DNA of 64,000 nt from Methylobacter tundripaludum SV96. Lineage in GTDB: Bacteria > Pseudomonadota > Gammaproteobacteria > Methylococcales > Methylomonadaceae. Numbering within the stretch: position 1 is the first letter of the stretch; each line of letters starts with the position of its first letter. The translations under genes were made by a program, and so were the position numbers. Of the stretch, positions 9,064 through 38,002 are shown in pieces. Location: contig NZ_JH109153.1 in NCBI RefSeq assembly GCF_000190755.2, forward strand, positions 1,425,872 to 1,489,871, read 5' to 3'. The notes beneath the pieces were generated by a model. That model made no database searches. It saw only the letters and a list, made by a program, of their open reading frames with translations, and was not told where the DNA came from.

Positions 9064-9107
9064 AGGGTATACTTTATTCACACTTTTACCTTTATTGTAA
9101 ATGAACT

Positions 9108-9731
9108 ATGGATAACTTGACCAAACACCTAGATGCCTACAAATTTGCTCTGCAAACTAAGGACGAAAACATCTTGCTGCACGAAAAAGCCTGTCTGACA
9201 GCCGCTGCTACATCGGCGTTGCTGGAGCAAGATTCTAAGGATATGCGTAGCATTAGGGCTTGTTGCGCCAATTTGTCCTCATTGGCTGACCGTCTCGACA
9301 CCACCGGTAAACCCGGTGACCGGTGGCGCACACTGGGGGATGTGTTGACCTTGGCGCTGGAAAGCGGCAAACCGCTGGAACAATTGCGTTTGGTATTGCC
9401 GTCCTCGGTCGGTGGGTTAATGATGAAGCACATCAAAGAGCGCCCCGGCATCACGCCGACGGAATTGGCTCAAAGTTTCGAAAACCCAAAGCAGTTAAGC
9501 CATATTTCCAACGAAATAAAAAAGCTCGAAAACGCCGGTTTGATTCATTGTCTCAAACGTGGAAAAAATAAAGAATTATTCTTGTCAGTACTGGGTAAAG
9601 AGGCTTTGGATAGAGTCGCACCGTTGAAAATCGTTCCTCAACAGGAATCGAAGCGAGATTACAAACATATAGATAATAGACGTGTGGTATCCGGCCTTCC
9701 GCAACTTAGCTTGTTCAAGATGACGGCATAA
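9108..9731 (+). CDS. Winged-helix protein of the nitrilase/ParA operon
   Basis: A 207-residue protein. Residues ~105-175 form a winged-helix DNA-binding domain of MarR-like type (GITPTELAQSF, ISNEIKKLENAGLI, then a basic wing KRGKNKELF and LGKEAL). The N-terminal ~100 residues are helical and have no recognised family. It is separated by two bases from the following ParA-like gene (stop 9731, ATG 9734), a spacing typical of obligate partners. It may be the operon's regulator or a nucleic-acid sensor; sequence alone cannot tell. Confidence 0.65.
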   Translation: MDNLTKHLDAYKFALQTKDENILLHEKACLTAAATSALLEQDSKDMRSIRACCANLSSLADRLDTTGKPGDRWRTLGDVLTLALESGKPLEQLRLVLPSSVGGLMMKHIKERPGITPTELAQSFENPKQLSHISNEIKKLENAGLIHCLKRGKNKELFLSVLGKEALDRVAPLKIVPQQESKRDYKHIDNRRVVSGLPQLSLFKMTA

Positions 9732-9733
9732 AA

Positions 9734-11464
9734 ATGACCGCCCAAACAGAAAAACTCCCTGCGCTGACCCGCTTCGTCGCCTTTTATTCCTACAAAGGCG
9801 GCGTTGGGCGCACCTTGGCAATGGCTAATTGCGCACGAGCATTGGCGGCGCGCGGCAAAAAAGTGGTGCTGCTGGATTTTGACCTGGAAGCTCCTGGCTT
9901 GCTGCATTTCGACGTATTTAAACCCAAAAATGGAGCGAAAAGGCCTGCGGGATTTGCCGAATATCTGGAAGCTTGTTTGCAAGACGGCCCGCCGGATGAG
10001 CTGGATGGCTATATCCACGAATGTAAAGGAAAGAGCACGGATGAAGGTAAAACTTGGCTGATGCCCGCCGGACGCCACAAAGAGCCGGGCTATTTGGCTT
10101 TTCTGAATAACATGACCTGGAACGACTTTTACACGCAAAATGACGGCTATAAAATCCTCGAAAATCTGCGCGGTCATATCATTGAACGCTATGAGCCGGA
10201 TTATGTGTTCATCGATTCGCGCACCGGTCTTTCGGAAATCGGCGGTATCGCCACGCACCAATTAGCTGACATCGTGGTGCTGGTGTTTAATTTGAACGGG
10301 CAAAACCTGGAAGGCGCAAAACTCGTGTTCGATTCAATCCGCAAAGCGCCGCTACACCCCGCCGTCATTCTGGTTGCTTCGCCTGTCCCGGTCATGCCGA
10401 TGGACGAAGGTACGCCGTTTTATAAGAAAATGAAGAGCATCAAAAAGAATTTTTCCGGCGCTTATAATGCGGGGAAACCGCTGGTTATCCCTTATCATCC
10501 GCTATTAGCCTTCGATGACCGTCTACTCGTTGATGATGGCGACTTATTTAGTTCCGATGTGCCCTACCGCCGTATAGTGGGAAAGATCCAGGAAGTCGCG
10601 GCAGTTGATGCGGATTATTATTTGCAGCAAATGACCGAGCTGATGCGGCGAGGCGACTGGCAACAAGTACAGGGCATTGCCTTGAAAGGTTTGGCAAAAA
10701 ATCCGACGGATATTTATTTGTTGCTGAATTTGACGCTGGCTTATTGTTTTACAGGTATGTCGGAAAAGGCGATCACAACTATTGATGAACTATTGCGGTA
10801 TCATGCCGATACTGTCGAAATCGCCAAACAACAAATAGTTGCTCTGGCTCTGTACAACAAAGGCTTTGCATTGGGGCAATTGCAACGAAGCGAAGAAGCT
10901 ATCGCAACCTATAATGAGCTGCTGAGTCGATTCGGCGAATTTCAGACATTGGCTTTCCAAGAAGCAGTCGCCAACGCATTGCTCAACAAAGGCGCTACAT
11001 TGGGACAATTGCAACGGAGTGAAGAATCCATTGCCGCCTATGACGAACTGCTACGGCGATTTGGTGCGTCGTCGGAATCCATTTTACAGGAGCTAGTAAG
11101 TAATGCATTGAACGGCAAGGGCTTCGCTTTGCTGCTAAATGCCAAAAAAGTTCTCGGTAACCCTGAAATACAGAAAAGCCTGTTGCAAACCGCGTTGGCT
11201 CAATTCGAACAGGCGTCTGTTCATGCGGTGCAGGAAAATCGCGCGATGGTTCTCGGCAACCAAGGCTATGCGCTGTTTTTATTGGGGCGCACGGCGGAAA
11301 GCGAGCAAGTGCTGAAAGAGGCGCTGGCGCTAGGCGGACAAAAACTCTACGAAGCCGAACTGGCCGACAGCCGCATCGACCCGTTACCCGAAGACGAAGC
11401 GTTCCGTACCTTGCTCGACCGGCTGTGGAGTGAGGTCTGCGCACAGGCTGCTACAAAAGGGTGA
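9734..11464 (+). CDS. KGGVGR-type ParA/MinD-like ATPase with C-terminal TPR repeats
   Basis: A 576-residue protein. The N-terminal ~270 residues are a SIMIBI P-loop ATPase with the deviant Walker A KGGVGRT (21-27), followed by VVLLDFDLEAPGL and the switch segment VFIDSRTGLSE. The C-terminal ~290 residues contain tetratricopeptide-like repeats; two near-copies of KGFALGQLQRSEEAIATYNELL are visible. The KGGVGR variant differs from chromosome-partitioning ParA (KGGVGKT) and is known from multi-gene signalling and conflict systems in bacteria. It closes the three-gene operon with the nitrilase-like and winged-helix genes. The function is inferred. Confidence 0.75.
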   Translation: MTAQTEKLPALTRFVAFYSYKGGVGRTLAMANCARALAARGKKVVLLDFDLEAPGLLHFDVFKPKNGAKRPAGFAEYLEACLQDGPPDELDGYIHECKGKSTDEGKTWLMPAGRHKEPGYLAFLNNMTWNDFYTQNDGYKILENLRGHIIERYEPDYVFIDSRTGLSEIGGIATHQLADIVVLVFNLNGQNLEGAKLVFDSIRKAPLHPAVILVASPVPVMPMDEGTPFYKKMKSIKKNFSGAYNAGKPLVIPYHPLLAFDDRLLVDDGDLFSSDVPYRRIVGKIQEVAAVDADYYLQQMTELMRRGDWQQVQGIALKGLAKNPTDIYLLLNLTLAYCFTGMSEKAITTIDELLRYHADTVEIAKQQIVALALYNKGFALGQLQRSEEAIATYNELLSRFGEFQTLAFQEAVANALLNKGATLGQLQRSEESIAAYDELLRRFGASSESILQELVSNALNGKGFALLLNAKKVLGNPEIQKSLLQTALAQFEQASVHAVQENRAMVLGNQGYALFLLGRTAESEQVLKEALALGGQKLYEAELADSRIDPLPEDEAFRTLLDRLWSEVCAQAATKG

Positions 11465-11514
11465 AACATAGCCCAAAAGCAGGGTACAGGGCTTGCTCCT
11501 GAGTCATTCCAGCA

Positions 11515-12024
11515 TCAAGCCTTGTACAATTCACGCAAAGCGTCAATCGGATAGCAAGCGGCTATCGCACTCATTGGCATACGATTAAGATCATGGACGA
11601 TTTGCGGAATCATGTAGCTATGAACCCCGCCCGCATCCTCAATATGGTATTTATAATGTTGAGCTAAGTCATTCATCGAGCCCAACACGCTTTTGCTGTT
11701 GGTATTGGCAAAGCCGATTTCTGCGTATTCTTGCAGGATTTTATCGGTGGTTGTTGTATCAAAACCTTCTTCCGCCAGTATGCATTGCAAAAAATCTCTG
11801 AATAACCTATCGAGCTGGCAGAATTGCTCTTTTGGGACATCCGGTATCAGGAAGTTGAACAGGGTTTTATCGTTGACAAATAAAACGCAGCGGCTTTGGC
11901 CGATGATTATCAGGTTGGCATGCCATGAGCCTAATAATGAGGGTGTGGGGTCTGGCTGGACTAAAGCATCGTTTTTAAGCCCTATTTCTTTTTGGAGTTT
12001 TTTGGTGCAGCGGATTAGTTGCAT
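11515..12024 (-). CDS. DUF6933-like protein
   Basis: A 169-residue soluble protein that starts MQLIRCTKKL and contains WHANLIIIGQSRCVLFVND. This pattern resembles, from memory, the uncharacterised DUF6933 family, small proteins that open with a CTKKL motif. No catalytic residues are evident. It is convergent with the KGGVGR operon (51 bases between stops) and probably not part of it. Function unknown. Confidence 0.5.
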   Translation of the reverse strand: MQLIRCTKKLQKEIGLKNDALVQPDPTPSLLGSWHANLIIIGQSRCVLFVNDKTLFNFLIPDVPKEQFCQLDRLFRDFLQCILAEEGFDTTTTDKILQEYAEIGFANTNSKSVLGSMNDLAQHYKYHIEDAGGVHSYMIPQIVHDLNRMPMSAIAACYPIDALRELYKA

Positions 12025-12160
12025 TGATATTTTGTAAAGTATGTGTTGAGTAAAAAGTGCATCACAGCAATATACACTATCGCAGAACGAGGCAGGTAAG
12101 CCCTCGGCAAGTTTCGGCTTTGGTTACGCGCAAGGACTCGGTTTAAAACGCCCCAGTCAG

Positions 12161-13720
12161 TTAGGTTTTACGATACTCCGCCAAATTAACCCCATACTTT
12201 TTCAACTTGGTATAGACAGCCCGCGAAGTAATGCCCATATCTTCGGCTGTCTTTTTTACATCACCCTGATGCTGTTTTAGAGCGCTTTCAAGAAACGCCT
12301 GCTCAGCCTTGCCAAGCGCCTGTTCTTTAATGTCTTTCCATTGCTCGAGGTTAAGTGCTTTGACTGGAAGCGGCAAATCCAACTCGGTCATTTCGTTGCC
12401 GGTGGCAAATAAAATGCTGCGTTCAAGGATGTTTTCCAATTCACGAACGTTGCCCGGCCATGGATAAGCGCGGATTTTCTGCATGACTTCACGGCTGACC
12501 GATTCAACCGCTTTGTTATATTTCTTGCTCAGGCGCTGCACAATCAATTGCACCAGATAGGGCATGTCTTCCGGGCGTTCGGCCAGTGGCGGGATGCTTA
12601 ACCGAACCACGTTGATGCGGTAATACAGGTCATTGCGAAACAGGCCTTGCTTAACCAGCTCTTCAAGGTTGTTGTTGGTTGCGGAGATTATTCTCAGGTC
12701 AACCGACAAGGTTTGTTTGCCGCCGACTCTTTCCAGTTCGCCTTCCTGTAGTACTCGAAGCAACCGGGTTTGCGCTGCGGGGGACAGTGTGTCGACTTCA
12801 TCCAGAAACAAGGTTCCGCCTTCGGCCCGCTCAAAATAACCTTGATGCACTTCGATGGCGCCGGTAAACGCACCTTTTTCATGCCCGAACAACGCACTCT
12901 CGATCAGGCTTTCGGGAATTGCGCCGCAGTTGATCGGGATAAAGGGTTTGTTGCAGCGGTCGCTCATCGCATGTATAGCGCGGGCGATCAATTCCTTGCC
13001 GACGCCGGTTTGCCCCTGAATCAGCACTGTTGCCAATGTCGGCGCTATCACTTCGATGGCTTGCAATATTTTCTGCATGGTCGGCGATTTGGCAATAATC
13101 GCCGGAGGCTGGTGTTTTTTTGCAGGCTGTTTGCTTTGTTTGCGCCAGATTTGTTGCATGCTCTGTTCAATGCGCGAGTGCAGCTCGTTAATATCCTGCA
13201 TTTCCTTAACGGGTGTGGTGTCGGTGTATTCCATGCCCGGACGGTCTTTTGCCGCGTTCGGGTTGGTGTAGACGCAAACTTCGCACTTGCCGTCGTGGCG
13301 GGCGATGCTTTGCTTGATTTCCACTTTGGCGTAACCGAAATTTCTGGCTGCAATACCGCCAAAGACGCTGGACGTCATTCTGCATAATTCGGGAAAATTG
13401 GTGACCCGGTCGCCAAAGGGGCAGCAGCTGTTGGTAACGGTAATGCAATCGGGGTTGCTGGAGACCAGTGAAAATTTACCGCCGATGTTGTTTTTAAGGC
13501 CGAGGATCAGTTCGGTATAGCTTTCTTTATCGAGCAGTTCGCTTTTGTGGGTTTCTTCCCGATAGGTTTCTTCAAAAAAGCATCCGGCAGTTTTGGCGAT
13601 GTGTTCAATCAATTGCTCGCAGTGCTTTTGTCCTTGTTGTTCGCTGGCATGCATCAGCTCAAGGATGAAGGTTTGCAGAAAAAAAACAGGTGTTAAACCG
13701 GAAAGGGAGTTATTGTTCAT
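12161..13720 (-). CDS. Sigma-54-dependent activator with a Cys-rich sensor domain
   Basis: A 519-residue enhancer-binding protein. Residues 1-~165 form a sensor domain with conserved-looking cysteines (CCPFG at 99-103, C113, C146 and C149 in CEVCVY) resembling the MetOD1 output/sensor domain. The AAA+ domain has Walker A GQTGVGKE (236-243), an intact GAFTGA sigma-54 contact loop (283-288), Walker B LFLDEV and the arginine-finger region. The C-terminal Fis-type helix-turn-helix ends TSRAVYTKLKKYG. It is divergent from a gene with a strong -24/-12 promoter 130 bases away, its probable target. The cysteines could bind a metal or iron-sulfur cluster, making it redox- or metal-responsive; that is inference. 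Confidence 0.85.
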   Translation of the reverse strand: MNNNSLSGLTPVFFLQTFILELMHASEQQGQKHCEQLIEHIAKTAGCFFEETYREETHKSELLDKESYTELILGLKNNIGGKFSLVSSNPDCITVTNSCCPFGDRVTNFPELCRMTSSVFGGIAARNFGYAKVEIKQSIARHDGKCEVCVYTNPNAAKDRPGMEYTDTTPVKEMQDINELHSRIEQSMQQIWRKQSKQPAKKHQPPAIIAKSPTMQKILQAIEVIAPTLATVLIQGQTGVGKELIARAIHAMSDRCNKPFIPINCGAIPESLIESALFGHEKGAFTGAIEVHQGYFERAEGGTLFLDEVDTLSPAAQTRLLRVLQEGELERVGGKQTLSVDLRIISATNNNLEELVKQGLFRNDLYYRINVVRLSIPPLAERPEDMPYLVQLIVQRLSKKYNKAVESVSREVMQKIRAYPWPGNVRELENILERSILFATGNEMTELDLPLPVKALNLEQWKDIKEQALGKAEQAFLESALKQHQGDVKKTAEDMGITSRAVYTKLKKYGVNLAEYRKT

Positions 13721-25488: not shown

Positions 25489-25630
25489 CCTCATTTAATT
25501 AGGCTTACATTCACTCGATAATTATCGGATGTGAGCAACTAAACACAGCTAAGCCGGGAACAAAAGATATCGTGAACTCAACCACGAAGTGCAATCCCAT
25601 CTATTCGTCAACGCCGTTAAAGGAGGACAA

Positions 25631-28354
25631 GTGCTTGATCTATTTTTTCTAAACTCACTAACCGATATGACTCTTGCATACAACAGGAGTTATAACATTC
25701 CGATGGTGATTGTTTCAGTGCTCATCGCAATTTTTGCGTCCTTCTGTTCGCTTGAGATGGTCGATCGACTGGCGCGTGGCGATCAACGTTATCTCTGGTT
25801 ATCAATCGGTGCATTGATTCTTGGCGGGGGCGTATGGGCCATGCATTTCATCGGCATGTTGGCTTTCCAGCTTGATTGCGAGGTCACTTATGATCCATGG
25901 ATTACCGGCTTATCCGTATTGCCCGGCATTTTTGCAGCAGCCGTGGCGTTAAATATTGTTACCAGCAAAAAGGTCACTTTAAACAAATTACTGTTGAGCG
26001 GCATCGTTATGGCCTCAGGTATCGGTCTGATGCACTACTCCGGCATGGCGGCAATCCGTTTGGACGGGATCTTGCGCTATAACCTGAACCTGTTCATTTT
26101 GTCTCTTGCCGCCGCTGTTTGTTTATCGGTTGCCGCGTTGTCGATCAAGACTTTTCTGTCCGGATTGCCGGGGGTTACAAGTACATTTGTTTCTTCGTTG
26201 ATCGGAGGCATCGTGCTGGGAGGGGCAATATCCAGCATGCATTATATCGCTATGGAAGCGGCGTACTTTGTTCATGCTCATGCTCATGCTCATGCTAATG
26301 GCGATGCTCGCGTCATTGCGGCAACAAGCCCTAACATTCTTGCAATCGCTGTTATTTGTATCGCCGTCTTGCTGATCTTCAGTGGTTTAATGTTTACTTA
26401 CCTGGGTATGAAAATCGCTCATGTTCGTACCCGTATCAATGCCATTCTTGCCTCAACCAGCCAAGGTTTTGTGATGATGGATCGAGACGGCATTATCACG
26501 GAATGTAACCAAGCCATGCTGGTCTTGATGGGCACGGACAAACAGTCACTGGTAGGCAGGTTTTACAGGGGTTTAATCAGTACGGATAACAGCTCCGTGA
26601 TGCAGGCCAATTATCGAATGGAAGCACGGCTGAACCGTCCCGATGGGAGCCTATTGCCTTGTTTGATTGACAGCAATTCAATCACCGACGATAGCGGAGA
26701 AAGAATCTATTCTTTCGCTTTGTTCAGTGACATTAGCCAGCGTATAGCAGACGAGACCGAGCTACGGGAGAGTGAGACACAATTTCGTGCATTACTTGAA
26801 TCGACGCCGGACCCCATGGTGATCTTAAATAGCTACGGTTTGATCGGCATCGTTAATCATCAAGCTGAAGACTTACTTGGATACAGTAAAAACGAGCTAT
26901 TGGGCGAACCCATCGATATTTTATTGACCGATGAATCGCATCATATATTTGCTAAGTTGCGTGAAAATTATATAGGTAATGCCCAGGCCGGGCCGGTGGG
27001 CAAGCAACAAGAGCTAAGGGTTAAAACTAAAGAGGGCCGGGAAATTCCTGTCGAGGTTAGCTTTAGCCCTATCAATACCTCCAAGGGATTACTGATTGCC
27101 GCTGCATTGCGAGATATTAGCCAGCGTAAAATGGCGGAATCCGCACTTGCAAGATCCGAAATAAAGTTTCGCACACTCTATGTATCCACAAGCGAAGCAG
27201 TCATGCTTTGGGACGAACGCGGTTTTTTTGATTGCAATGACGCAACCTTAGCCATATTCGGCTGCGCAACCAAAGAGGAATTTTATACAAAGCAACCCAG
27301 TGACTTTTCCCCTCCTCAGCAGCCATGCGGCGGAAATTCATCGGATTGCTCTAAAGAGGCAATAGCCAAGGCCTTGGAACAGGGAAGCCATAGCTTCGAA
27401 TGGCTGCATCGGCGTATCGATAACGGTAAAGATTTTCCGGCCGAGGTGGTATTAAGTTCTATGGAGTTGGATGGAAAACTTGTGCTTCTGGGCACAGTAC
27501 GGGATATTACTGACCGCAAGCAATACGAAGAAAAACTCCTTCAATTGGCCGAAGCTAAAAGCCAGTTATTGCAATCGGAGAAGATGGCTACGATTGGTCA
27601 ATTGGCTGCCGGCGTTGCCCACGAATTGAACAACCCGATTGCTTTCGTTTATTCCAATCTGGGAACTTTTGAAAGCTATGTTAAGGATATTTTAGAGATA
27701 ACCGCCGCTTGCCAAACCAGCCTCCATCATGACGATCTCGCTAATGTTATCGCGCTGCAAGCAGAAAAGAACTTTGAATATTTGAAGTCCGATATTTTCG
27801 AGCTGATAACAGAGTCAAAAGACGGCATTACACGGATGAGAAAAATCGTAGAGGACTTGAAGAATTTTTCTCGAGTTGGGGAACCGGATTGGCAATCAGC
27901 CGACCTGCAAAAAGGACTGGAATCAACACTGAATATTGTTTGGAACGAACTTAAATATAAATGCGTAGTGATCAAGCACTATAGCGATGATTTGCCCCAA
28001 ATCCGTTGCATTGCTTCGCAACTCAACCAGGTTTTTATGAATTTGCTGGTTAATGCAGGGCACGCCATTGAAAAGAAAGGGGAAATTACCATTACTACGC
28101 GCGTATGCCCAAGCGACAACACGGCGGTCCAGGTTTTGATTACTGACACCGGTGCCGGTATCCCGCCGGAAAATCTCAAGCGGATTTTCGATCCTTTCTT
28201 TACAACAAAACCGGTGGGACAAGGTACCGGTCTTGGTCTTTCGATTACTTGGGGCATTATTGCTAAACATCACGGCACCATTGAAGTGAACAGTACCGTT
28301 GGCATAGGCTCAACTTTCACAATTACATTGCCAGTCGATCAGTACGATGCCTAG
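25631..28354 (+). CDS. MHYT-PAS sensor histidine kinase
   Basis: A membrane sensor kinase of ~907 residues. The N-terminal MHYT domain (~1-240) shows [15 protein letters not shown] and SMHYIAM motifs, thought to bind copper and sense a diatomic gas. Three PAS domains follow (~260-640), then a HisKA dimerisation helix with the phospho-acceptor His in GVAHELNNP (~663) and a HATPase domain with DTGAGIPPE and GTGLGLS. There is no receiver domain. I start at GTG 25631 because an AAAGGAGG ribosome site lies four bases upstream; a GTG 14 codons earlier has none. No partner regulator is adjacent. Confidence 0.9.
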
Positions 28355-28570
28355 ATTCGACATTCCGCAGCTTCATTACAAACTGGTGTTACGCACGGAG
28401 GATGGTATTTCTCCCGTTTGCTGCGCCGAGCACCGGAGCTTTTATCGAGAACAGCCCGATAGGGGCGCGGCAGGGATGCCGCGCGTTAGCAGAGGGGTAG
28501 GAGCAAGTGCCTAGAGGACTGGGGTGAGGGCGATCAAAAAGCGCAAATTGTGATTTTTCAAAGTTTAAAT
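28355..28570. other. Gene-free spacer with repeat remnants
   Basis: The 216 bases between the kinase and the cyclase (convergent genes) hold a GGCGCGGCAGGGATGCCGCGC palindrome near 28455-28477 and a GGGGTGAGGG tail, resembling parts of other intergenic repeats here. No coding sequence is visible. Confidence 0.5.
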
Positions 28571-30805
28571 CTAGTCATGTTTCGCGTCGTATAAATGGTA
28601 GCGACTTTTCCCGGTCTGCTTGACGACATACATGGCCTGATCGGCTTGGCGCAATAGCGTATCGCCGTCCTCGTTGGCAGAAGTATGAAAAGATACGCCA
28701 ATGCTGGCCGACACCGCAACTTCATGACTGCCGATGACTATCGGCAGAGCGATAATTTCCAGAATGCGGTCGAGAATTTGGCAGCACTCCCGCTCACCGG
28801 CAAGATCATTAAACAACACAACGAATTCATCTCCGCCCAGTCGTGCCAAGGTATCGCCCGCGCGCAACGCTTCTTGCAGGCGATGGGACACTTCCACCAG
28901 TAATTGGTCGCCGGCCTCGTGTCCGCACCGGTCGTTGACCTGCTTGAAGCCGTCAAGGTCCAAGTAGCAGACGAACAGCATCCTGCCGCTACGTTGCGCT
29001 CGCGCGATGGCCTGATCCATGCGGTCGGCCAGCAAACGCCGGTTAGGAATGCCGGTCAACGCATCGTAATAGGCGACTTGGCTCAGCTCGGCTTCATGTG
29101 CTTTGAGGTAGCTGATGTCGGAAAATACACCGACATAGCGTCGCACCCGACCATCATCGTCGCAGATGGCTGCAATCGAGAGTAACTCCGCAAAAACCTC
29201 GCCGGATTTTCGCCGGTTCCAAATCTCGCCGCGCCAGGCCCTTTTCTGCTTCAGAGCTTGCCACATCTTTGCATAATAGGTCTTGTCCTGTTGTCGCCCC
29301 GAACTCAGCATCTTGGGGTCTTTGCCGATCACTTCTTCGCGGGTGTAGCCTGTAATTTTGGTGAATGCCGGGTTAACGCTCAAGAAAACATTGTTCGCAT
29401 CGGTGATCACGATGCCTTCCTGGCTGTTGTCGAACACGCCGGCAATGATGCGCAAGTCTTCCTCCGCTCGCTTGCGTTCGGTGATGTCGCGAAAATACCA
29501 GACGCGTCCATAGTACCGGCCGTCCGCTCCGGTGGCAGGAGCTGAATACCGATCGAATATTCTTCCGTCTTTTAGCGGTATTTCTTCATGACTTTTGTCG
29601 TCTCGGTGCTCGTATAGATATTGGACTCGGGCGAGAAATGCTTCCGGTTCGGCGACTTGTTCAACAACTGTTTGAAGTATCGGCGCATCCAGCCGCTCAC
29701 TGATCAGCTGTGGGGACAGCTGCCATAGGTCAATGAATTGTTGATTGTAAGAGATGATGTGTGCGTTTTCATCGACCACCAGGATGGCATCGGGCGAAAC
29801 CTCCTGCTGGGTTTGCAGGATCGTATTCTTGAGTTTTATTTCCTGCTGAGCCCGCTTATGCTCGGTGATGTCGCGCCAGACGCCAACCAGCAGACGCTTG
29901 CCGGAGAGATCCAGCATGCGGGAATTGATCTCGACATCCAGAATGTCTCCGTTCTTGCAGCAGTGCCTGTTCTCAAAAGACATCCCGCCCGATTCATCCA
30001 CCTGCCGCACTGCCGCAACCAGCGCCTCTTCATTCAAGTCAGCCTGAGTGTCAACTAGCTGTAGTCGGAGATATTCTTCATGCGTATAGCCCAAAGTGCG
30101 GCATGCGGCAGGATTGGCCTCGACAAAGCGCAATGTCTTCGGGTCTATCAGTTCGATAGCGCTGGGCGCCTGTTCGAAAATGGCGCGGAACAACTCTTCG
30201 CGCTCCACCAGTTGCCGTTCCAGGCTCTTGCGATTGGTGATGTCCTCGGTGATGCCCATCAATTTTTCAACGCCGCCATTCTTGTTCTTGATCGGAACAA
30301 AACACGACTGATAAATCTTCCCGAGCGGTCCATCGGCCTTAAACTCGAAGTGGCTGCTTTCCCCGGCATAAGCCTGGGTAAGTAATGCAGCTACGCGCTC
30401 CCGGTCGGCAGCGCTGACTGAATCCAGGTATAAATATCCTTGTATCTGGCATTCCTCTTTGAGCCCCAACATGCACAGTCCCGCCGTGTTCATGGAAACT
30501 ATTCTGCCGTCCATGTCTATCTCGTGGATACACATGGGTGAGTTTTCGACCAGCAAGCGGTTGTGGTTTTCGCTTTCACGCAAGGCACGGGTAATTTTCT
30601 CGTTATCCCGCAATGCCGCTTCCAGTTCATCGGTGCGGCGGCGAACCAGATCTTCAAGCGTAATTGTTGACTGAAACAGATTGAAGTCGGACGTATCGAT
30701 GTTCGCGCTGCTTTCGGCGCGATTTATCAATGCTTGAACGACCTTGTTCAGGCGCGCGATTTCGGCATGCAATACCTGCTCGTTCATGCCCGCTTGATTA
30801 GTCAT
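28571..30805 (-). CDS. PAS-PAS-PAS-PAS-GGDEF diguanylate cyclase
   Basis: A 744-residue soluble protein. An N-terminal coiled region (1-~70) precedes four PAS domains (~75-195, 200-325, 330-455, 456-580) and a GGDEF domain. The active-site motif GGDEF is intact (~657) and an inhibitory RxxD site (RAGD) sits five residues before it, so it should make c-di-GMP with product feedback. No EAL domain is present. Its start overlaps the end of the FIST gene by eight bases, so the sensor and the cyclase are coupled. One PAS domain may bind haem or flavin, but that cannot be read here. Confidence 0.92.
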   Translation of the reverse strand: MTNQAGMNEQVLHAEIARLNKVVQALINRAESSANIDTSDFNLFQSTITLEDLVRRRTDELEAALRDNEKITRALRESENHNRLLVENSPMCIHEIDMDGRIVSMNTAGLCMLGLKEECQIQGYLYLDSVSAADRERVAALLTQAYAGESSHFEFKADGPLGKIYQSCFVPIKNKNGGVEKLMGITEDITNRKSLERQLVEREELFRAIFEQAPSAIELIDPKTLRFVEANPAACRTLGYTHEEYLRLQLVDTQADLNEEALVAAVRQVDESGGMSFENRHCCKNGDILDVEINSRMLDLSGKRLLVGVWRDITEHKRAQQEIKLKNTILQTQQEVSPDAILVVDENAHIISYNQQFIDLWQLSPQLISERLDAPILQTVVEQVAEPEAFLARVQYLYEHRDDKSHEEIPLKDGRIFDRYSAPATGADGRYYGRVWYFRDITERKRAEEDLRIIAGVFDNSQEGIVITDANNVFLSVNPAFTKITGYTREEVIGKDPKMLSSGRQQDKTYYAKMWQALKQKRAWRGEIWNRRKSGEVFAELLSIAAICDDDGRVRRYVGVFSDISYLKAHEAELSQVAYYDALTGIPNRRLLADRMDQAIARAQRSGRMLFVCYLDLDGFKQVNDRCGHEAGDQLLVEVSHRLQEALRAGDTLARLGGDEFVVLFNDLAGERECCQILDRILEIIALPIVIGSHEVAVSASIGVSFHTSANEDGDTLLRQADQAMYVVKQTGKSRYHLYDAKHD

Positions 30806-31967
30806 CGCGCATCTCTGTCTCTATCCCGGAAGCGCTGCCAAAGGCACAGCCGGTGAAAGTCTGATTGTTGTGTATGCCGCGGAATTGTTCGCCGTAGCTA
30901 CTGAAACCTATAGTGTTGTTGCGCTGGAAAATCTCCATGACGTGATCCTTCAAACCGTTTTTGGAAACTTCCAGGTTGCGCAAAATGCAGTCGCAACCCA
31001 AGACCAGTTGAGTTGAGCCTATTTCTGTCCGAATTGCATCGAAAGTCTGCTCCAGGTTATCCACTAAATTCACGCCATGCGCCACTCTGAGTACCAGGCC
31101 CGTTTCAATGGCGCAATAGAAAGTCAGGCTGCCGTCTGCATTTGCCTTCTGGATAGAGCGTACATAATCCGTACCGCCAATTTTTACCACGACGGAGGGA
31201 AAGGCAAAGTCTTTTGAATTGAATTCGTTAATGGCAACACCAACCAGCCGGGCATACTCTGTGGCTGCAGGTAGCCCATTGATCTCCTTGACAATGCGCT
31301 TGGCGGGATCGGCTTCCGTGACTACGAAACGTTCGTCAGTCGAAACAAAATGATGGGTCTTGAATATTTTGAAGGGCAGGGCAGTGTTAACCAGAACCAG
31401 TGCCGCGCTGTCGGTATGGAAGTTACCATTACTATAAACATAAGTTTTGGCAAACTTTTGGTCGTCCCCCGCCGATCCGCCAAACAGCGCGATCTTGCCT
31501 AATGTATATTGCAATGCATGCGCCACTCGTTCTTCGCGCCCGGACATGCCGTCAATCAGCAGCAGCGCGAAGCTATGATCCGGGCTTGGGTTTGAGGCTT
31601 TACTCTCAAGCCGCTGTAACAGGGTTTGGGCGAAGTCATGCCCTTTGGTAATATCGAACTCACTTAATTGATCCAGCAGCCCGCTGACAGCGACGCAACT
31701 TGCTTCAGGAAAACTAACGCCGGACAGGCTATGCTGGCAATAACCGGCCGGCCCGATTTCTCCAGCGGTGGTGCAGCCGATGACTTGAACCCCGGCAAAC
31801 AAACGGCGCATTTCTGCAGCCAGCACGTCAAGGTCGTATTCGCTGGAGCAGAAGAAAACCACCAACGCCATGTCCTGCTGTGCCACCGCTGCATGAAACT
31901 CCTGCACCGCCAGTTTTGCATCGGTAGCGCGCGACTGAAACGTGAGTATTTTGTTGTGATCGCTCAT
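30798..31967 (-). CDS. FIST domain sensor, NosP-like
   Basis: A 389-residue protein with FIST_N and FIST_C domains: VVFFCSSEYDLD and VIGCTTAGEIGP at the N-terminus, LLIDGMSGREERV and FGGSAGDDQKF in the middle, NGLPAATEYARLVG further on. It resembles, from memory, NosP haem proteins that sense nitric oxide and are encoded beside histidine kinases or cyclases. Here the cyclase is the overlapping downstream gene. I use the ATG at 31967; a TTG seven codons upstream is also open. Haem binding is inference. Confidence 0.82.
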   Translation of the reverse strand: MSDHNKILTFQSRATDAKLAVQEFHAAVAQQDMALVVFFCSSEYDLDVLAAEMRRLFAGVQVIGCTTAGEIGPAGYCQHSLSGVSFPEASCVAVSGLLDQLSEFDITKGHDFAQTLLQRLESKASNPSPDHSFALLLIDGMSGREERVAHALQYTLGKIALFGGSAGDDQKFAKTYVYSNGNFHTDSAALVLVNTALPFKIFKTHHFVSTDERFVVTEADPAKRIVKEINGLPAATEYARLVGVAINEFNSKDFAFPSVVVKIGGTDYVRSIQKANADGSLTFYCAIETGLVLRVAHGVNLVDNLEQTFDAIRTEIGSTQLVLGCDCILRNLEVSKNGLKDHVMEIFQRNNTIGFSSYGEQFRGIHNNQTFTGCAFGSASGIETEMRDD

Positions 31968-32165
31968 ATTTCCATCGCAAATTTCCAAATTGTTTGAACT
32001 GTAGTCGATTTACTACACGACACTGAAAGAATGATTACATTATATGTGGTAACTACTCAGCCTAAAATAATAGTTTGCTGGTTTTTGAAGTAAGCAAAGG
32101 GAGTTTCTGTGTGCGAGTAAGTTTTTATTTTGGAGAAACACACAATGCAAGCCGAAGTGTATGGC

Positions 32166-32284
32166 GTAGGCTGGAATAAGGCCATCCAAGCGCGTAGCGC
32201 GAGGTGGCGTTTCCGGCGAATTTAGGAGGTGTTTGCTGGAAACGCCAGTTCTCGCTGTCGTTCGAACCGGCTTATTCCGGCCTA
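32166..32284. repeat. Palindromic element with GTAGGC..GCCTAC arms
   Basis: A ~119-bp element bounded by GTAGGCTGGAATAAGGCCAT and GCTTATTCCGGCCTAC. A second copy at 58197-58412 shares the whole sequence but is split by another repeat. The stretch 31968-32165 before it holds no gene that I can see. Confidence 0.8.
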
Positions 32285-32311
32285 CCGGGCTTCGAGCGCG
32301 ATTACCGTTGA

Positions 32312-32528
<217 letters not shown>

Positions 32529-32625
32529 CGTTAGATATTTTTTGTTTTGCTAAAGGAATAATGCTATCTTGCTGCCACCTCGTATTAATACGTAGGCTAA
32601 GCAGCTCGCCGGTTGCAACGCCAAT

Positions 32626-32660
32626 ATAGGATGTGCCGACGCCAGGAGGCGCATCATTCG
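32626..32660 (+). repeat. REP sequence, left copy flanking the RAYT gene
   Basis: A 35-base sequence beginning ATAGGATGTGCCGACGCCAG. It is repeated in inverted orientation, with one mismatch, at 33223-33257 on the other side of the transposase gene. Confidence 0.9.
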
Positions 32661-32689
32661 CATAAAGCGTAAATAAAGGAATCAGTCCA

Positions 32690-33220
32690 TTGACCAACTA
32701 CCGCCGCATTTACACGCCGGGCGCGACATGGTTTTTTACCGTGAATATTGCCAAACGACGAAATAATCGGTTATTGGTTGAAAACATAGATGTACTGCGG
32801 ACGGCCTTTTATGATGTTAAAAAGAAACACCCTTTTCGCATTGAAGCGGCGGTTATCATGCCCGACCATCTTCATTGTCTATGGACTTTACCGCCGGGTG
32901 ATGTTAATTATTCAATGCGTTGGGGACAGATCAAAGGGCGCTTTTCCAGTCACATCGATACCGGCGAAAGCATTTCTAAAAGCAGGAAAAAACGGCGCGA
33001 GCGCGGACTCTGGCAACGCCGTTTTTGGACGCATTTAATAACGGATCAAGATGATTTCAATCGTCATGTCGATTACGTTCATTGGAACCCGGTCAAGCAC
33101 GGTTGGGTCTGCCAAGTTGCAGATTGGCCGCATTCGAGTTTTTTCAAGTTTGTAAAAATGGGTGTTTATCCCATGACCTGGGGGCATTCGGGTGAGTTTG
33201 ATTTTGATGCGGGTGAGTAA
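32690..33220 (+). CDS. REP-associated tyrosine transposase (RAYT)
   Basis: A 176-residue Y1/HUH-type transposase domain protein of the TnpA_REP group. The HUH motif reads MPDHLHCLW (near residue 58) and the family segment HVDYVHWNPVKHG with a likely catalytic Tyr is near 125. RAYTs nick and move REP sequences; here a near-perfect pair of inverted REPs flanks the gene, the classic arrangement. The start is TTG at 32690, with AAGGA about ten bases upstream. The protein looks intact. Confidence 0.9.
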   Translation: MTNYRRIYTPGATWFFTVNIAKRRNNRLLVENIDVLRTAFYDVKKKHPFRIEAAVIMPDHLHCLWTLPPGDVNYSMRWGQIKGRFSSHIDTGESISKSRKKRRERGLWQRRFWTHLITDQDDFNRHVDYVHWNPVKHGWVCQVADWPHSSFFKFVKMGVYPMTWGHSGEFDFDAGE

Positions 33221-33222
33221 CC

Positions 33223-33257
33223 CGAATGATGCGCCTTCTGGCGTCGGCACATCCTAT
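33223..33257 (-). repeat. REP sequence, right copy flanking the RAYT gene
   Basis: Inverted copy of 32626-32660 with a single mismatch, beginning three bases after the RAYT stop codon. Confidence 0.9.
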
Positions 33258-33349
33258 GTGGCGCATCTTATTGCGTTGACCCCAGTAATTTTTTATTACC
33301 CAGATAGTTATAATTCGCGATATAAATTTATCGCAAAAGTGTAGGAAAT

Positions 33350-34360
33350 ATGATTGATATAAGTTCAGCAGAAATTGCGAAGATTATTGTTCACCGCGTA
33401 GGAAATAGAATCAGGGAGGAGGGATACTCGCTTTCAAATCAAGAGGTAAAAAGAACTAAAGACATTGATGATACTTTCCTTCGTCACTATCTTGCGCCAC
33501 TTGTAAGAAGTAATGATATTTACGGTTTTTATCATGAATCTGATATAGGGTTGAATGCGGTTTATCATTTCACAAACCAAGTTTTTGCAGAGCCTTCAAG
33601 TTTTAGCGAACAATCTCAAAATATTGCGAAACACTTATATAGTGCATCCACTCACCCAAAAATATCTAGTGGGGAACTAATCATCATTTTTTTTACAGGT
33701 CTTATTGTTGATGGCGTAACGTGTGATGCTCTGGGAATCTATCGGATTGAAATGAAAGATAGTTATCTTGATGTAGACGATGATTCAGGTGCATTCCAGC
33801 TTATAGAGCGGACGGGCATTTCACTTGAAAAAATGCAGAAAGGAGCTCTTGTTCTGTCAACTGATAATCGAGTGTTTGCTATAGATTCATTAAGCCAAAA
33901 AACAAAATATTGGATGGAATCGTTCTTAAAAATCACTCCACAAAGTACGCCTAAAGCTTGTGCAAAAATCGGGGGGGCTTTATTGAAAGCAATATCATCA
34001 AAAATATCTGATCCTAATGCTGCTCTTGAACTTGGAAACCGAATATCTAAAAGCATAGAAGAATCTGAAACAATTTCGCTAGGGGTTATTAAAGAAATTT
34101 CAGCCGATTATGTAGATGAAGATGCATTCGGTGAAATACTGAGCAATCTCCAAGGAAAAAGCGGATTTGATCTTGCCGATAATTTGCAGCTAGATAGCCC
34201 GACTTTTGCAAAATACACCAAAAACGTAACTAAACAGACCCGAATTGCAGAAGGAATAACTTTGGTTACGTCAGCTAACTCCAGCATATCAAAAATAGAT
34301 ATTCAAAACACAGAGAATGGACTTGTTGCCACAATAGCTATCGAAATTATGGGGAATTAG
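33350..34360 (+). CDS. Nucleoid-associated protein-like (NdpA/YejK family)
   Basis: A 336-residue protein that I read as a member of the nucleoid-associated NdpA/YejK family: KIIVHRVGNRIREEG at the N-terminus, DIYGFYHESDIGLNAVY, AKHLYSASTHPKISSGELI and a central KMQKGALVLST segment, all in family order and at family length. It is the first gene of an AT-rich operon: the next ATG follows after two bases. The family binds DNA; in this setting it may recognise or mark DNA for the downstream nuclease-like proteins. That role is inference. Base composition differs visibly from flanking genes, suggesting transfer. Confidence 0.7.
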   Translation: MIDISSAEIAKIIVHRVGNRIREEGYSLSNQEVKRTKDIDDTFLRHYLAPLVRSNDIYGFYHESDIGLNAVYHFTNQVFAEPSSFSEQSQNIAKHLYSASTHPKISSGELIIIFFTGLIVDGVTCDALGIYRIEMKDSYLDVDDDSGAFQLIERTGISLEKMQKGALVLSTDNRVFAIDSLSQKTKYWMESFLKITPQSTPKACAKIGGALLKAISSKISDPNAALELGNRISKSIEESETISLGVIKEISADYVDEDAFGEILSNLQGKSGFDLADNLQLDSPTFAKYTKNVTKQTRIAEGITLVTSANSSISKIDIQNTENGLVATIAIEIMGN

Positions 34361-34362
34361 TT

Positions 34363-35346
34363 ATGGGTGGAAAATCAAATGAGTCAGGAAAAATTGGTGA
34401 ACAATTAGCTTCTTCTCTTTTAGAAATGATTGGATGGAAACCATCAATTCACAACCTAACTATCAAATGCAACACGCCGACGCACTTAACTGAAAGTGGA
34501 AATCAGAGAACAACACATGAAGAAGATCAGTTTTTCATATACCACAATCCGTTTCATGATGACCATACCGAAATTGTCCATATTTCGGTAAAAAACAATA
34601 TTGATCAGTATCCGCAAAACGCGGCACTAAAAACTAGTTTTAAAGCCCATTTGAAGGAGTTGCATGAAATCATTGAGTGTGCAAAGCATGACCCAAAACT
34701 AATAGAAATAACTAATTCGTTTGGTGCAAAACGACACAAACACCATTCTGGTTTATTGGTATGGTTACAAAATGATAAGGATAATATTGAGCAGAACATC
34801 AAATCAGACTTATCTAATAGCCAGCTTGAACAATCTAATGATGTACCTGTTTACCTAATAGATAATGCTCGCGCATCTTTCCTGCTAAAAGTTGTTGATG
34901 ATTTAAAGCGTCGTTCAAATAAAGATAATGTTGACGATTTAACGACTCGTTCAGTTAAAGGTAATGTCGAATTTTTTTACCCTCAAATTGGAACATCAAT
35001 GGGAGTTAATGAAAGCCGAACAGGGAAAATGATTCCATTAGAATTAATTGCTGCGGACATTATTTTTGGCTTTATTCGAAACACAGAAGGCAGTGTGCAA
35101 GAGTTAGTCATCTATGCCAATCAAACTTTTAGTGTTGATTCTTATAAAAGGCTAATAGCCTATGCTTTACAATTTGTATCGGGATCTGTTTCAGTTATAA
35201 AAATAGGAATGCCTGATTATAATCCCACACACCATGGAAACGATGCAAAACAAGCTCGCCTTGTTTTCAATCGTCGAGAAGAATCTATAACACCATTCTC
35301 TTTTGAACGCTCTATATTGAATTTTCTTGATGAGGAAACAAAATGA
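34363..35346 (+). CDS. Nuclease-like protein, resembles GapS4a
   Basis: A 327-residue protein. The N-terminus (SGKIGEQLASSLLEMIGW) has the helix often found at the start of restriction-type PD-(D/E)XK nucleases, and residues ~65-80 read PFHDDHTEIVHISVKNN, which could supply the D..(E)xK-type core. The sequence resembles, from memory, GapS4a of the two-gene GAPS4 anti-phage system; this needs a search. It begins two bases after the nucleoid-associated-like gene and overlaps the next gene by ATGA. Low GC and A/T-ending codons set the operon apart from its surroundings. Confidence 0.5.
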   Translation: MGGKSNESGKIGEQLASSLLEMIGWKPSIHNLTIKCNTPTHLTESGNQRTTHEEDQFFIYHNPFHDDHTEIVHISVKNNIDQYPQNAALKTSFKAHLKELHEIIECAKHDPKLIEITNSFGAKRHKHHSGLLVWLQNDKDNIEQNIKSDLSNSQLEQSNDVPVYLIDNARASFLLKVVDDLKRRSNKDNVDDLTTRSVKGNVEFFYPQIGTSMGVNESRTGKMIPLELIAADIIFGFIRNTEGSVQELVIYANQTFSVDSYKRLIAYALQFVSGSVSVIKIGMPDYNPTHHGNDAKQARLVFNRREESITPFSFERSILNFLDEETK

Positions 35347-36482
35347 GTTCGGAATTTAATATATATTCAAGTATTGCTTATGGCAATGAACTTCGTAGAT
35401 TACTTAATAGCAATCACATCTCATACGGTGAAGTAGATAGTGTACTTAAAGAAAAGGGGGTATTTGTAGGTGATAATGACAAAGAAGTTACCGTCCCTTT
35501 GTTATCTGCAACATTGCTTACACCGGATGAATTTTTAAAATTAATCGAGAATAACTTCAATCGTGAATCGCGACCAAAGGTGAAACCTCTTTTGAGTTTA
35601 GAACTTGCTGAGAAAGGTTTGGACTGGATTAGCCCCCTTAAGAAATTATTATTAACAGAAGATTTTCAAATGCTTTCCAGCAAAGGAAATGAAAAGTTCG
35701 TTACGGAACCAACAATTGTTGTAGAAGGTAAAAAAATAACTATATCTTATTCGATTATGCGTGAAGATTTTAGTCGGGATTTTTTACAAAGAGAGCTAAT
35801 TTTTAACGGGGAAATAACGATTGAGCAACAAGGCAATTCACTGAAATTAGACCGTTCTTCAACCCATTCGTCAAAAGGGATTGAAGCTGTTAATAAGAAA
35901 ATAAATTCTCGTATTGCAAAAATACTAAGTGATTCAAAGCTAGTATCTGATACAAAACCACAACAAATTACATTTGGTTCTTTTACTAACGAAGAAAGAG
36001 TTAGGTTCTTTAAGCGGCTTACCGCTGGTTTCCCTAAATATCTTTTGCTTGGAACAGTTAATGATATTGAGATAAGTCTTGATAAAAATGCACCGCCATT
36101 GCCTGATGATCCGCAAATATCATGGATGAAGCAAGCAGTGAGGCGTTTGAAAATTGATGGAGAACGTCTAAATGACATTTTTCTGATTAGTGATGAACAA
36201 TATTACAAGTATTACTATATTCTACGAATTGATATAACGTTTCCATTCAAAGAAGGAGCAAATTCTGGCGAATGTCACATTAGTTTTTCATTTAGCCATT
36301 CAGAACGTAGCAAAAAAAATATTGCTTCATCCGAGTTGATTTTTGATTGTGTAAAAACAACTTACAAAAATACCGCAAACTCGGATGCTAAAAAAATAGT
36401 TACAACGGCTATTAATAAAGCAGTTCGTTCATTAATTGAAGAAAAGTACGAACTATTACTTTCAGAACGAAATGCTAAATAA
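35343..36482 (+). CDS. Unknown protein, resembles GapS4b
   Basis: A 379-residue soluble protein with no catalytic motif that I recognise. The N-terminus (IAYGNELRRLLNS, VLKEKGVFVGD, LLSATLLTPDEF) resembles, from memory, GapS4b, partner of GapS4a in a phage-defence pair. The remainder alternates beta-rich segments (KKITISYSIM) and charged helices. Translation is coupled to the preceding gene by ATGA overlap, so the two products probably form a complex. It ends the AT-rich operon. Identification is tentative. Confidence 0.45.
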   Translation: MSSEFNIYSSIAYGNELRRLLNSNHISYGEVDSVLKEKGVFVGDNDKEVTVPLLSATLLTPDEFLKLIENNFNRESRPKVKPLLSLELAEKGLDWISPLKKLLLTEDFQMLSSKGNEKFVTEPTIVVEGKKITISYSIMREDFSRDFLQRELIFNGEITIEQQGNSLKLDRSSTHSSKGIEAVNKKINSRIAKILSDSKLVSDTKPQQITFGSFTNEERVRFFKRLTAGFPKYLLLGTVNDIEISLDKNAPPLPDDPQISWMKQAVRRLKIDGERLNDIFLISDEQYYKYYYILRIDITFPFKEGANSGECHISFSFSHSERSKKNIASSELIFDCVKTTYKNTANSDAKKIVTTAINKAVRSLIEEKYELLLSERNAK

Positions 36483-36600
36483 TATTGCTTAACGAGGCTG
36501 CAGAGTACTAGCGTTCATGGGAAAAGCAGAATAAAGAGGTCACAAAACACATGGTCAGGCCTTCCCAATCACGCACCCGGTCTGATCTTAGCCCAGTTCC

Positions 36601-36731
36601 GTAGGTCGGGCATGCTGTTTATGCCCGACGCTCTCAAGCTTCAATAAAATGACGAATTTCGGGCTTAACCGCCGCCGTTCCCTCTTCTGGCGTTAAAATG
36701 TCGGGCAACGAAAAGCTGTCGCCCGACCTAC
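36601..36731. repeat. Palindromic element with GTAGGTCGGGC arms
   Basis: A 131-bp element from GTAGGTCGGGCATGC to GCCCGACCTAC, with inner GTCGGGCA/TGCCCGAC repeats. It ends a few bases before the GNAT remnant begins, so it probably marks where that gene was broken. The 118 bases before it, after the defence-like operon, hold nothing I recognise. Confidence 0.8.
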
Positions 36732-36738
36732 ATTAACT

Positions 36739-36987
36739 GATCCTGTTCCTGTCGCCATTCTTGGTCGTCTTGCCGTTGACAAGTCCTGGCAGGGGCGAGG
36801 GGTTGAGGTTGCCTTGCTTCAAGATGCCGTCGGTCGCACGGCGCAAGCTGGCGGCATTCTTGGCATACGCGGTCTTCTTGTTCATGCGCTTTCGATTGAA
36901 GCAAAGGCTTTTTATGAGCATCATGGGTTTGTCGCATCGCCGACACAACCCATGACCTTCATCCTGTCGCTAAAGGGACTTGTGTAA
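36739..36987 (+). pseudogene. GNAT acetyltransferase C-terminal remnant (toxin type)
   Basis: An open frame without a start codon, preceded by an in-frame TAA at 36733. It encodes DPVPVAILGRLAVDKSWQG, RGVEVALLQDAV, then LLVHALSIEAKAFYEHHGF and ends SLKGLV. This is the C-terminal half of a TacT-like GNAT toxin, including the acetyl-CoA binding loop and the AKAFYEHHGF motif with its Tyr. The N-terminal half and any ribbon-helix-helix antitoxin are absent; a palindromic element abuts the break. Confidence 0.82.
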
Positions 36988-37031
36988 TTATTGATGGTCT
37001 TTAGAGAGTCCTGTTCAGCAGTTATCCCTGT

Positions 37032-37340
37032 CTAAACCAAATGCACTTCCAATTTTTTACCCACAGCAGCGGCGTATTTGCGCAAGGTGTCGATAGACGG
37101 CGAATGTTTGCCTGAGACCAAGGCGCTTTCCAGGCGGGCCACCGCCGAGGCTTTTGTGCCCATGCGATCAGCGACTTGCGCTTGGGTTAATCCGGCTTCG
37201 CGTCTGGCGCTGAGTATTTCGTCGAGTATGGCGTATTTTGTGATGTTGGCGTCATAATCGGCTTTTACCGCCGGATTACTTAATAATTGTTCGCGAAATG
37301 CGGCATCGTGTGGAACGGGTTGGTAAGTATCGTTAGCCAT
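37032..37340 (-). CDS. XRE-family antitoxin, HigA-like
   Basis: A 102-residue protein with a Cro/C1 helix-turn-helix at ~40-95 (REAGLTQAQVADRMGTKASAVARLESAL, split over the recognition helix). It overlaps the preceding toxin gene by eight bases, the toxin-first order typical of HigBA modules. It should bind and neutralise the toxin and repress the operon. Confidence 0.85.
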   Translation of the reverse strand: MANDTYQPVPHDAAFREQLLSNPAVKADYDANITKYAILDEILSARREAGLTQAQVADRMGTKASAVARLESALVSGKHSPSIDTLRKYAAAVGKKLEVHLV

Positions 37341-37659
37341 GGTTAACCTCTTTTAGTCGTTTTCTGGCAAGCTGTAAATCAGCCGCTGGTGTGGTATTGG
37401 TTTTCTTGACTAGGCTATGCAAAATAACAATCGCCTGTCCAATTTGTGTGCAATAAAACACGCGCCCGATGCCTTCTTTGCCTTTGGGGCGCAGTTCGAA
37501 TAAACCGCCGCCCATTGCACGGGAATGAGGCATGTGCAAATTTGCCCCGTGATTTTGCATTAAATCGGTCAAGTGAATGTAATCCGCTAAGATTCCCGCC
37601 GGTAGTGCCATCACTTGCTGCTTAACCCGCTCATTGTAGTAGGTGATGGTATAGTTCAT
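37333..37659 (-). CDS. RelE/Gp49-family toxin, HigB-like
   Basis: A 108-residue RelE-fold toxin of the Gp49/HigB group, recognised by GGGLFELRPKGKEGIGRVFYC and VILHSLVKKTNTTP. Such toxins cleave mRNA on the ribosome. It is upstream of and overlaps its HigA-like antitoxin. The ATG at 37659 is preceded by only weak ribosome-site sequence. The module looks intact. Confidence 0.85.
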   Translation of the reverse strand: MNYTITYYNERVKQQVMALPAGILADYIHLTDLMQNHGANLHMPHSRAMGGGLFELRPKGKEGIGRVFYCTQIGQAIVILHSLVKKTNTTPAADLQLARKRLKEVNHG

Positions 37660-37752
37660 GGGGGGATTGTAACAAATTTGTTACTTATGGCAACTGCCGC
37701 TTCTTGTAGAATAAATTGGGGTGGCAAATTTTGCACCGCATTTTTGTTTTTT

Positions 37753-37952
37753 GCTCTCGTTCCTACGTAGCATGTCACTGCCATTAAATTAAGGATGGAC
37801 AGTACCTTTTCCCTCAGGGAGAAGGTTAGGATGAGGGGATCAAATAAAGCTTTTTGCCTTATTTTTTATTCTCCTCACCCCAACCCTCTCCAGCAGGAGA
37901 GGGGGTTTTTTCTTAATTTAATGGCAGTGACGTAGCATGTGGGAACGAGAGC
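37753..37952. repeat. 200-bp nested palindromic block
   Basis: Outer arms GCTCTCGTTCC and GGAACGAGAGC, then CACTGCCATTAAATTAAG (37776-37793) facing CTTAATTTAATGGCAGTG, then an inner pair of CCTCTCC/GGAGAGG-type repeats (37808-37904). The CATTAA arms match those at 21541-21845. The block fills most of the 343-base gap between HigB and the cydX-like gene; no coding sequence is seen there. Confidence 0.8.
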
Positions 37953-38002
37953 GGTAGCATCCATGCTTGTGTTGAGTATATATGCAATGTAAGAGCGGGG
38001 AT

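Follow-up and report, generated by a model that had tools for sequence, protein, structure and literature searches.

The 64 kb window of Methylobacter tundripaludum SV96 analysed here (the whole stretch of contig NZ_JH109153.1 presented above) contains an operon of three open reading frames (ORFs) on the forward strand, coding for proteins of 336, 327 and 379 amino acids (Table 1), with a 2-base gap between the first and second genes and a 4-base overlap between the second and third. Its G+C content is 0.352, versus 0.488 in approximately 13.6 kb of flanking DNA, and the packed, AT-rich unit outlined in an initial annotation of the same sequence, with its 2-base gap and ATGA overlap, was exact in coordinates and spacing. 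That annotation had also proposed NdpA/YejK-like, GapS4a-like and GapS4b-like products, and all three assignments held: the second and third proteins belong to the GapS4a (NF047933, 313.6 bits; cut-off 270) and GapS4b (NF047934, 366.9 bits; cut-off 300) families, both above the curated NCBIfam cut-offs, and the first, lead protein exceeds the gathering score of Pfam NA37 and structurally matches YejK. GAPS4 is a two-gene anti-phage system, formed by GapS4a and GapS4b, from Gamma-Mobile-Trio islands of Vibrio. As detailed below, the three genes constitute one packed unit that is inherited jointly as a single GAPS4 branch among cellular and plasmid loci. Genes 1 and 2 are the sole matches to their families in the genome (4.85 Mb, 3 contigs), and none of the three proteins had a match at E ≤ 1 in PADLOC v2 (2023).

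The match of the lead protein to Pfam NA37 scored 67.7 bits (gathering score 24.6). Its AlphaFold model is of middling confidence (predicted local distance difference test, pLDDT, 71.7; predicted template modelling score, pTM, 0.62) and had a single PDB match at E ≤ 0.001 with Foldseek, Escherichia coli YejK (9be2; E 6.8e-7, probability 1.00, template modelling score, TM, 0.44, root-mean-square deviation, rmsd, 11.0); in a structural comparison with VIA, the same entry reached Z 16.1 over 254 aligned residues (rmsd 8.5), the runner-up row being at Z 6.6. The modelled fold of the lead protein is that of YejK, with a sequence identity to 9be2 of approximately 10–11% in the structure alignments. 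A phmmer search against PDB sequences returned two unrelated weak matches (E 0.046 and 0.93) and missed YejK, which was found by fold search only. NA37 recognised five of the eight other cellular operon copies scanned; the lead proteins from Yersinia, Rouxiella and Photorhabdus (loci L011, L014 and L015; locus numbers are ours) are 43–50% identical to that of the window and had no NA37 match at E ≤ 0.001, so that the association of NdpA with GapS4 may be easily overlooked in annotation. When 298 other Pseudomonadota genomes were searched with a profile built from nine operon lead proteins, nothing matched at E ≤ 0.001. NdpA relatives occur in 23 phage records, with query coverage of at most 68% among the matches listed, and in a plasmid collection, where those of Alicyclobacillus and Listeria innocua lie among ordinary metabolic genes and two further matches are from L. 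monocytogenes, one of them in an unannotated record. A kinship with KwaB, from the Kiwa system, was considered and dropped: the crystal structure 9mtn appeared in VIA at Z 4.7, level with unrelated rows resembling major histocompatibility complex proteins, and hhalign gave a probability of 0.2 percent in a comparison including only two KwaB-type sequences.

Residues E13, D55, S75 and K77 of GapS4a are invariant in the 33 sequences compared, from both branches of the family described below. Taken together with the order of strands in the model, this E...D...SxK arrangement is the signature of PD-(D/E)XK nucleases. GapS4a, as read from its sequence, carries an intact active-site signature of this type, and the initial annotation had noted nuclease-like features in the second gene product; the acidic residues and the (D/E/S)xK motif are intact in 33/33. 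The GapS4a model is likewise of middling confidence (pLDDT 73.6, pTM 0.77). Its VIA alignments fall on approximately residues 1–230 in some rows and on residues 169–327 in others; in the latter segment (window positions 34867–35343), the matching chains are Rpb5-like RNA polymerase subunits and restriction endonucleases, with Z up to 9.5, and the C-terminal half of the modelled protein may form a second nuclease-like lobe that has degenerated. Foldseek rows for Argonaute and acetyl-CoA carboxylase were set aside (query TM 0.17–0.24). Neither GapS4a nor GapS4b matched a PDB sequence at E ≤ 1, and GapS4a was found neither in phage records by tblastn nor in a single-sequence scan of viral contigs.

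Matches above the NF047933 cut-off occurred in 1/398 genomes of a Pseudomonadota sample (the window's own), 4/151 of the window's family, 4/296 of the family of Veronia pacifica, 8/394 of the order of Yersinia aleksiciae and 5/298 of the family of Atopomonas hussainii. Some genomes occur in more than one sample; two plasmids were added and 30 gapS4a-gapS4b loci were compared once repeats had been removed (L026, from genome G507, which repeats L010, and G1099, identical to the Pantoea plasmid L004 in coordinates and score). A further source of loci was a GapS4a alignment run against 84,980 species genomes, which yielded at least 10 loci from two peptide patterns only, so that members will have been missed. 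Matches to NF047933 that fell below the cut-off and spanned only a portion of GapS4a were excluded from the GAPS4 count. Five of these loci (L027, L028, L047, L048 and L077) showed, with their flanks, no GapS4a, GapS4b or NdpA match at E ≤ 1e-3; L036–L041 and L063 are further matches of this kind.

A YejK-like gene lies immediately 5′ of gapS4a, on the same strand and at a distance of −8 to +4 bp, in 14 of the 30 cellular or plasmid loci. These are the window, two Methylobacter metagenome-assembled genomes (MAGs), Y. aleksiciae, Luteibacter anthropi, A. hussainii, Rouxiella aceris, Photorhabdus akhurstii, a Pluralibacter MAG, and loci L024, L025, L069, L072 and L075; the named genomes span six bacterial families, and the closest copies to the window among them are those of the two Methylobacter MAGs. 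The lead gene is therefore conserved beside the GapS4 pair in 13 genomes besides the window; the initial annotation had proposed surveying how often this is so. The other 16 loci contained no NdpA by tblastn, nor at E ≤ 1 with a hidden Markov model of the 14 lead proteins, in stretches of 12–21 kb; in them, the closest upstream ORF of at least 60 amino acids sits 34–606 bp away, and blastp matched none of these ORFs to one from another locus. Genome G1253, from the Atopomonas-family sample, carries both kinds of GAPS4, without (L071) and with (L072) the YejK-like gene. In L024, gapS4b is apparently broken (93-amino-acid ORF, positions 9632–9913), with ndpA and gapS4a intact. Two loci have a long ORF upstream of the operon, of 1708 amino acids in L072 (2850–7976), where it contains UvrD and DEAD helicase domains, and of 1364 amino acids in L075 (2952–7046), where its 3′ end overlaps the start of ndpA by 4 bp; this deep sub-branch is perhaps a four-gene form.

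The trees of GapS4a (28 rows, leaving out L046 and L076, two of the 16 two-gene loci, with a broken gapS4a) and of GapS4b (27 rows, leaving out L009 and L024, with a short gapS4b, and L018, with a short gapS4b ORF call) each have one branch that separates the loci with and without the YejK-like gene, with 100/100 support, requiring a single change. The variant of GAPS4 with a third, leading gene that had been suspected from the window alone is thus, among the cellular and plasmid loci, one clade containing 14 of the 30. Protein distances among 12 of the three-gene loci (L009 and L024 were left out because of their incomplete gapS4b) correlated with r 0.93 between NdpA and GapS4a and r 0.96 between NdpA and GapS4b (0.93–0.98 among the three proteins), and none of 5000 permutations reached values as high.

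Divergence was unevenly distributed along the operon. Among the window, L010 and L025, NdpA is 97–99% identical, versus 83–91% for GapS4a and GapS4b; likewise, the synonymous divergence (dS) between the window and L010 is 0.03 for NdpA, 0.65 for GapS4a and 0.37 for GapS4b, and between the window and L025 it is 0.09, 0.37 and 0.48, respectively. The dS of GapS4a and GapS4b against the window is therefore 4- to 20-fold above that of NdpA, and selection alone would be a less likely cause of differences of such size than recombination exchanging the gapS4a-gapS4b core. This pattern suggests that the nuclease-partner core has been swapped beside a constant lead gene. The far more diverged portion, with respect to both L010 and L025, is window 34363–36200, comprising gapS4a and the 5′ part of gapS4b.

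Blastn comparisons also delimited the shared DNA. The only DNA found in common between the window and L025 (18 kb, from another genus of the same family) is 33296–36482, which comprises a 54 bp leader plus the three genes. The leader contains TATAAT (33309–33314) and an 18-nt inverted repeat (gcgata-taaatt-tatcgc, 33317–33334) ahead of the ATG; the repeat is intact in the window and L025, almost intact in L009 and not so in L010, and is a candidate operator. A promoter scan called no sigma-70-like hexamer pair in the leader. With L010, the window shares 32519–36474, with a small gap, together with short repeats; this segment takes in a REP (repetitive extragenic palindrome)-associated tyrosine transposase (RAYT). 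The segment starting at 32519, with the RAYT, is common to the window and the two Methylobacter MAGs, and is not shared with L025; the other flanking DNA from the MAGs had no match in the window. Inverted copies of a REP-like sequence (approximately 32619–32660 and 33223–33263) flank the RAYT.

Table 1. Features of the three-gene operon and its surroundings in the window.
Feature	Coordinates	Strand	Evidence and remarks
ndpA-like lead gene (YejK fold, NA37)	33350–34360	+	Pfam NA37, Foldseek and VIA; first gene in 14/14 three-gene loci
gapS4a, PD-(D/E)XK-type nuclease signature	34363–35346	+	NF047933; E13, D55, S75-x-K77 invariant
gapS4b	35343–36482	+	NF047934; 3′ of gapS4a in all 30 loci compared
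Leader common to window and L025	33296–33349	+	Homology block with L025 begins at 33296
RAYT	32690–33220	+	NF047646, 202.2 bits; companion, outside the system
Variable chromosomal hotspot holding the operon	25489–38000		Shared backbone ends near 25488 and 38001; 12.5 kb

Both the RAYT and a nearby toxin-antitoxin module had been noted in the initial annotation and were recovered, the latter as a HigB/HigA-like pair (Pfam Gp49 and HTH_3). The operon occupies a variable hotspot: four of five loci from the same genus lack it and have the same backbone ends at distances of approximately 0.7, 2.0, 10.6 and 14.1 kb, and the fifth (L108) shows one of the ends. In L104, only a 146-bp stretch near 36.6 kb matches the window between the backbone ends. 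Window positions 37753–37952 have many near-copies in genomes of the genus, resembling a miniature inverted-repeat transposable element or a REP. Among 23 flanking proteins scanned, which were hand-picked and serve as context and not as a statistic, clear defence genes accounted for five, in three loci: a GajA-like ATPase (L014), HsdR (L015), and cas3, cas5 and cas8c (L069). The latter locus contains ndpA-gapS4ab within a type I-C CRISPR-Cas locus (5158–13245), with the cas3 ORF (538 amino acids) on one side and cas5/cas8c on the other. Three others of the 23 were tyrosine integrases (L011, L016 and L072), and L072 had the UvrD/DEAD helicase.

We infer an anti-phage activity for the window operon from the names of its families, and we give close to an even chance to a three-component GAPS4 whose YejK-like member, as a DNA-associated subunit, recruits or licenses a GapS4ab nuclease. 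GapS4a would be the DNA-cutting effector, as its conserved signature suggests, and GapS4b its obligate partner, either as scaffold or as trigger. The YejK-like accessory subunit would recognise or mark a DNA state produced by infection, such as replicating or topologically strained phage DNA, and would then recruit or license GapS4ab at that DNA; the other GAPS4 branch, working without this subunit, would need a different way of sensing. YejK is cited as a double-stranded-DNA-binding partner of ParE, from topoisomerase IV, in PMC10561277, and PMC13092281 reports the new validation of a YejK nucleoid-associated domain within an E. coli anti-phage unit. The more specific proposal that a YejK-type nucleoid protein acts as a DNA-state sensor or loader (of topology, of replication, or of the absence of host chromatin), sending the nuclease immune system GapS4ab to phage DNA, is possible and put forward tentatively.

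Several observations weigh against this three-component reading. Foldseek returned nothing at E ≤ 0.001 for the modelled GapS4a, whose top VIA row was a viral RNA polymerase subunit (8q3b, Z 9.5), the rows below including EcoT38I (8.6), McrBC (7.9), SduA (7.6), Nt.BspD6I, Can2 and Cap4, with Z 6.5–8.6, near the level common for unmatched models. Most of the 23 flanking proteins are non-defence, such as the secretin of L010 and the molybdopterin oxidoreductase of L013; for several, no match was obtained. The mosaic divergence shows that one NdpA can go with different GapS4ab alleles, and this gives no argument for a tight interface between them. Additionally, in PMC8565334, NdpA2 from PAPI-1 gave no gel shift on a promoter fragment and regulates together with MvaT and TprA; DNA binding by the window lead protein is therefore not to be assumed. 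The viral contig L093 (IMGVR_UViG_3300050582_000065) contains all three genes in order (6001–8165), with gapS4b running off the contig end and with NdpA (110.3 bits) and GapS4a (302.8 bits) both above their cut-offs. Its GapS4a is placed, with a long branch, on the two-gene side, its NdpA does not fall within the clade that the 14 form, and with L093 each tree needs two changes, one change sufficing in only 7% (GapS4a) and 18% (NdpA) of the bootstrap trees (the tree including L093 left out L102, with the same score as L101). The lead gene was thus either gained twice, or present early and later lost, or L093 is misplaced. Among other viral contigs, L099–L103 contain GapS4ab and no NdpA was found in them, L099 starting at gapS4a so that the upstream region is outside the contig, and L094–L098 have NA37 proteins and no GapS4 was found.

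The strongest rival, unlikely in our judgement, is that the YejK-like protein is a regulator that controls or un-silences an AT-rich operon moving horizontally and takes no part in cutting. The G+C content of the operon is lower than that of its flanks in all 14 three-gene loci, typical of targets of H-NS-like silencers; PAPI-1 NdpA2 acts with TprA on an MvaT-silenced promoter, as stated in PMC8565334; and the window has the inverted repeat between TATAAT and the ATG. However, no operator-like sequence common to the 14 upstream regions was seen by eye, no motif search having been made, the repeat is not whole in L010, and the two-gene branch has no YejK-like gene. The existence of this branch argues likewise against a self-protection factor or antitoxin holding GapS4ab off the host nucleoid until infection, a role that we consider rather improbable. 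Although the gene is first and co-inherited with a nuclease-type protein in 14/14 three-gene loci, no sampled locus has GapS4ab of the three-gene branch without it, leaving no natural deletion from which to judge toxicity.

It is also possible, with small probability, that the operon is not anti-phage and serves in competition between mobile elements (plasmids, islands or prophages): some copies are beside integrases, on plasmids or on viral contigs, but NCBIfam names GapS4a and GapS4b as antiphage families, and genes resembling those of Gabija, CRISPR and type I restriction systems are among the neighbours. Finally, we regard as very improbable that the lead gene is a passenger hitch-hiking with GapS4ab. 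Adjacency by itself is no proof of function; yet the gene is intact, first and within 8 bp in 14/14 loci, down to approximately 30% identity, with a dN/dS (ratio of nonsynonymous to synonymous divergence) of approximately 0.14–0.28 among close relatives and with protein distances that correlate with those of GapS4a and GapS4b.

If the DNA-state sensor were correct, one GAPS4 branch would have a dedicated nucleoid-type subunit and the other would not, and YejK-like proteins would gain a defence function with a known partner. The YejK-like gene may be a missing part of how GAPS4 works; cloning gapS4ab alone from the three-gene branch could lose or misread activity, and branches with and without the YejK-like subunit are a natural comparison for infection sensing by GAPS4. 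The operon also offers a concrete nuclease partner for the YejK-type domain, for which the accessible portion of PMC13092281 gives no mechanism. A full-text literature search returned no match for GAPS4 as a phage defense system, although at least four papers name Gamma-Mobile-Trio without GAPS4; among the matches listed, PMC13092281 was the only one on defence to name YejK, and none describes a GAPS4 branch with a constant set of three genes and a YejK-fold protein in the lead. The original GAPS4 description and supplementary files lie outside that search, and the branch may be in print.

With respect to known systems, GapS4a and GapS4b are known families, and a YejK-type domain in defence is already reported, in PMC13092281; the DefensePredictor system of E. 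coli described there resembles the window operon in having such a domain in an experimentally protective unit. A blastn search of 5,426 E. coli genomes with the window operon and the Pluralibacter copy revealed no closely related DNA for either. NdpA2 of the integrative and conjugative element PAPI-1 is similarly a YejK-family protein on a mobile island, but in PMC8565334 it works with TprA and not with a nuclease pair. With YejK/NdpA (NA37, 9be2), the window lead protein shares the Pfam match and the fold, differing in being accessory in a defence-type operon and in its sequence identity of approximately 10–11%. Like GAPS4, the operon has proteins above the GapS4a and GapS4b cut-offs, gapS4a preceding gapS4b and the genes adjacent or overlapping; unlike the two-gene composition of that system, a YejK-fold third gene leads it. 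The three-gene branch is 25–28% (GapS4a) and 22–26% (GapS4b) identical to four two-gene copies, two on plasmids and one each from Silvania and Veronia. Because of the third lead gene in this branch, we assign the proteins to the GapS4a and GapS4b families but regard the system as a GAPS4 variant and not as the canonical form.

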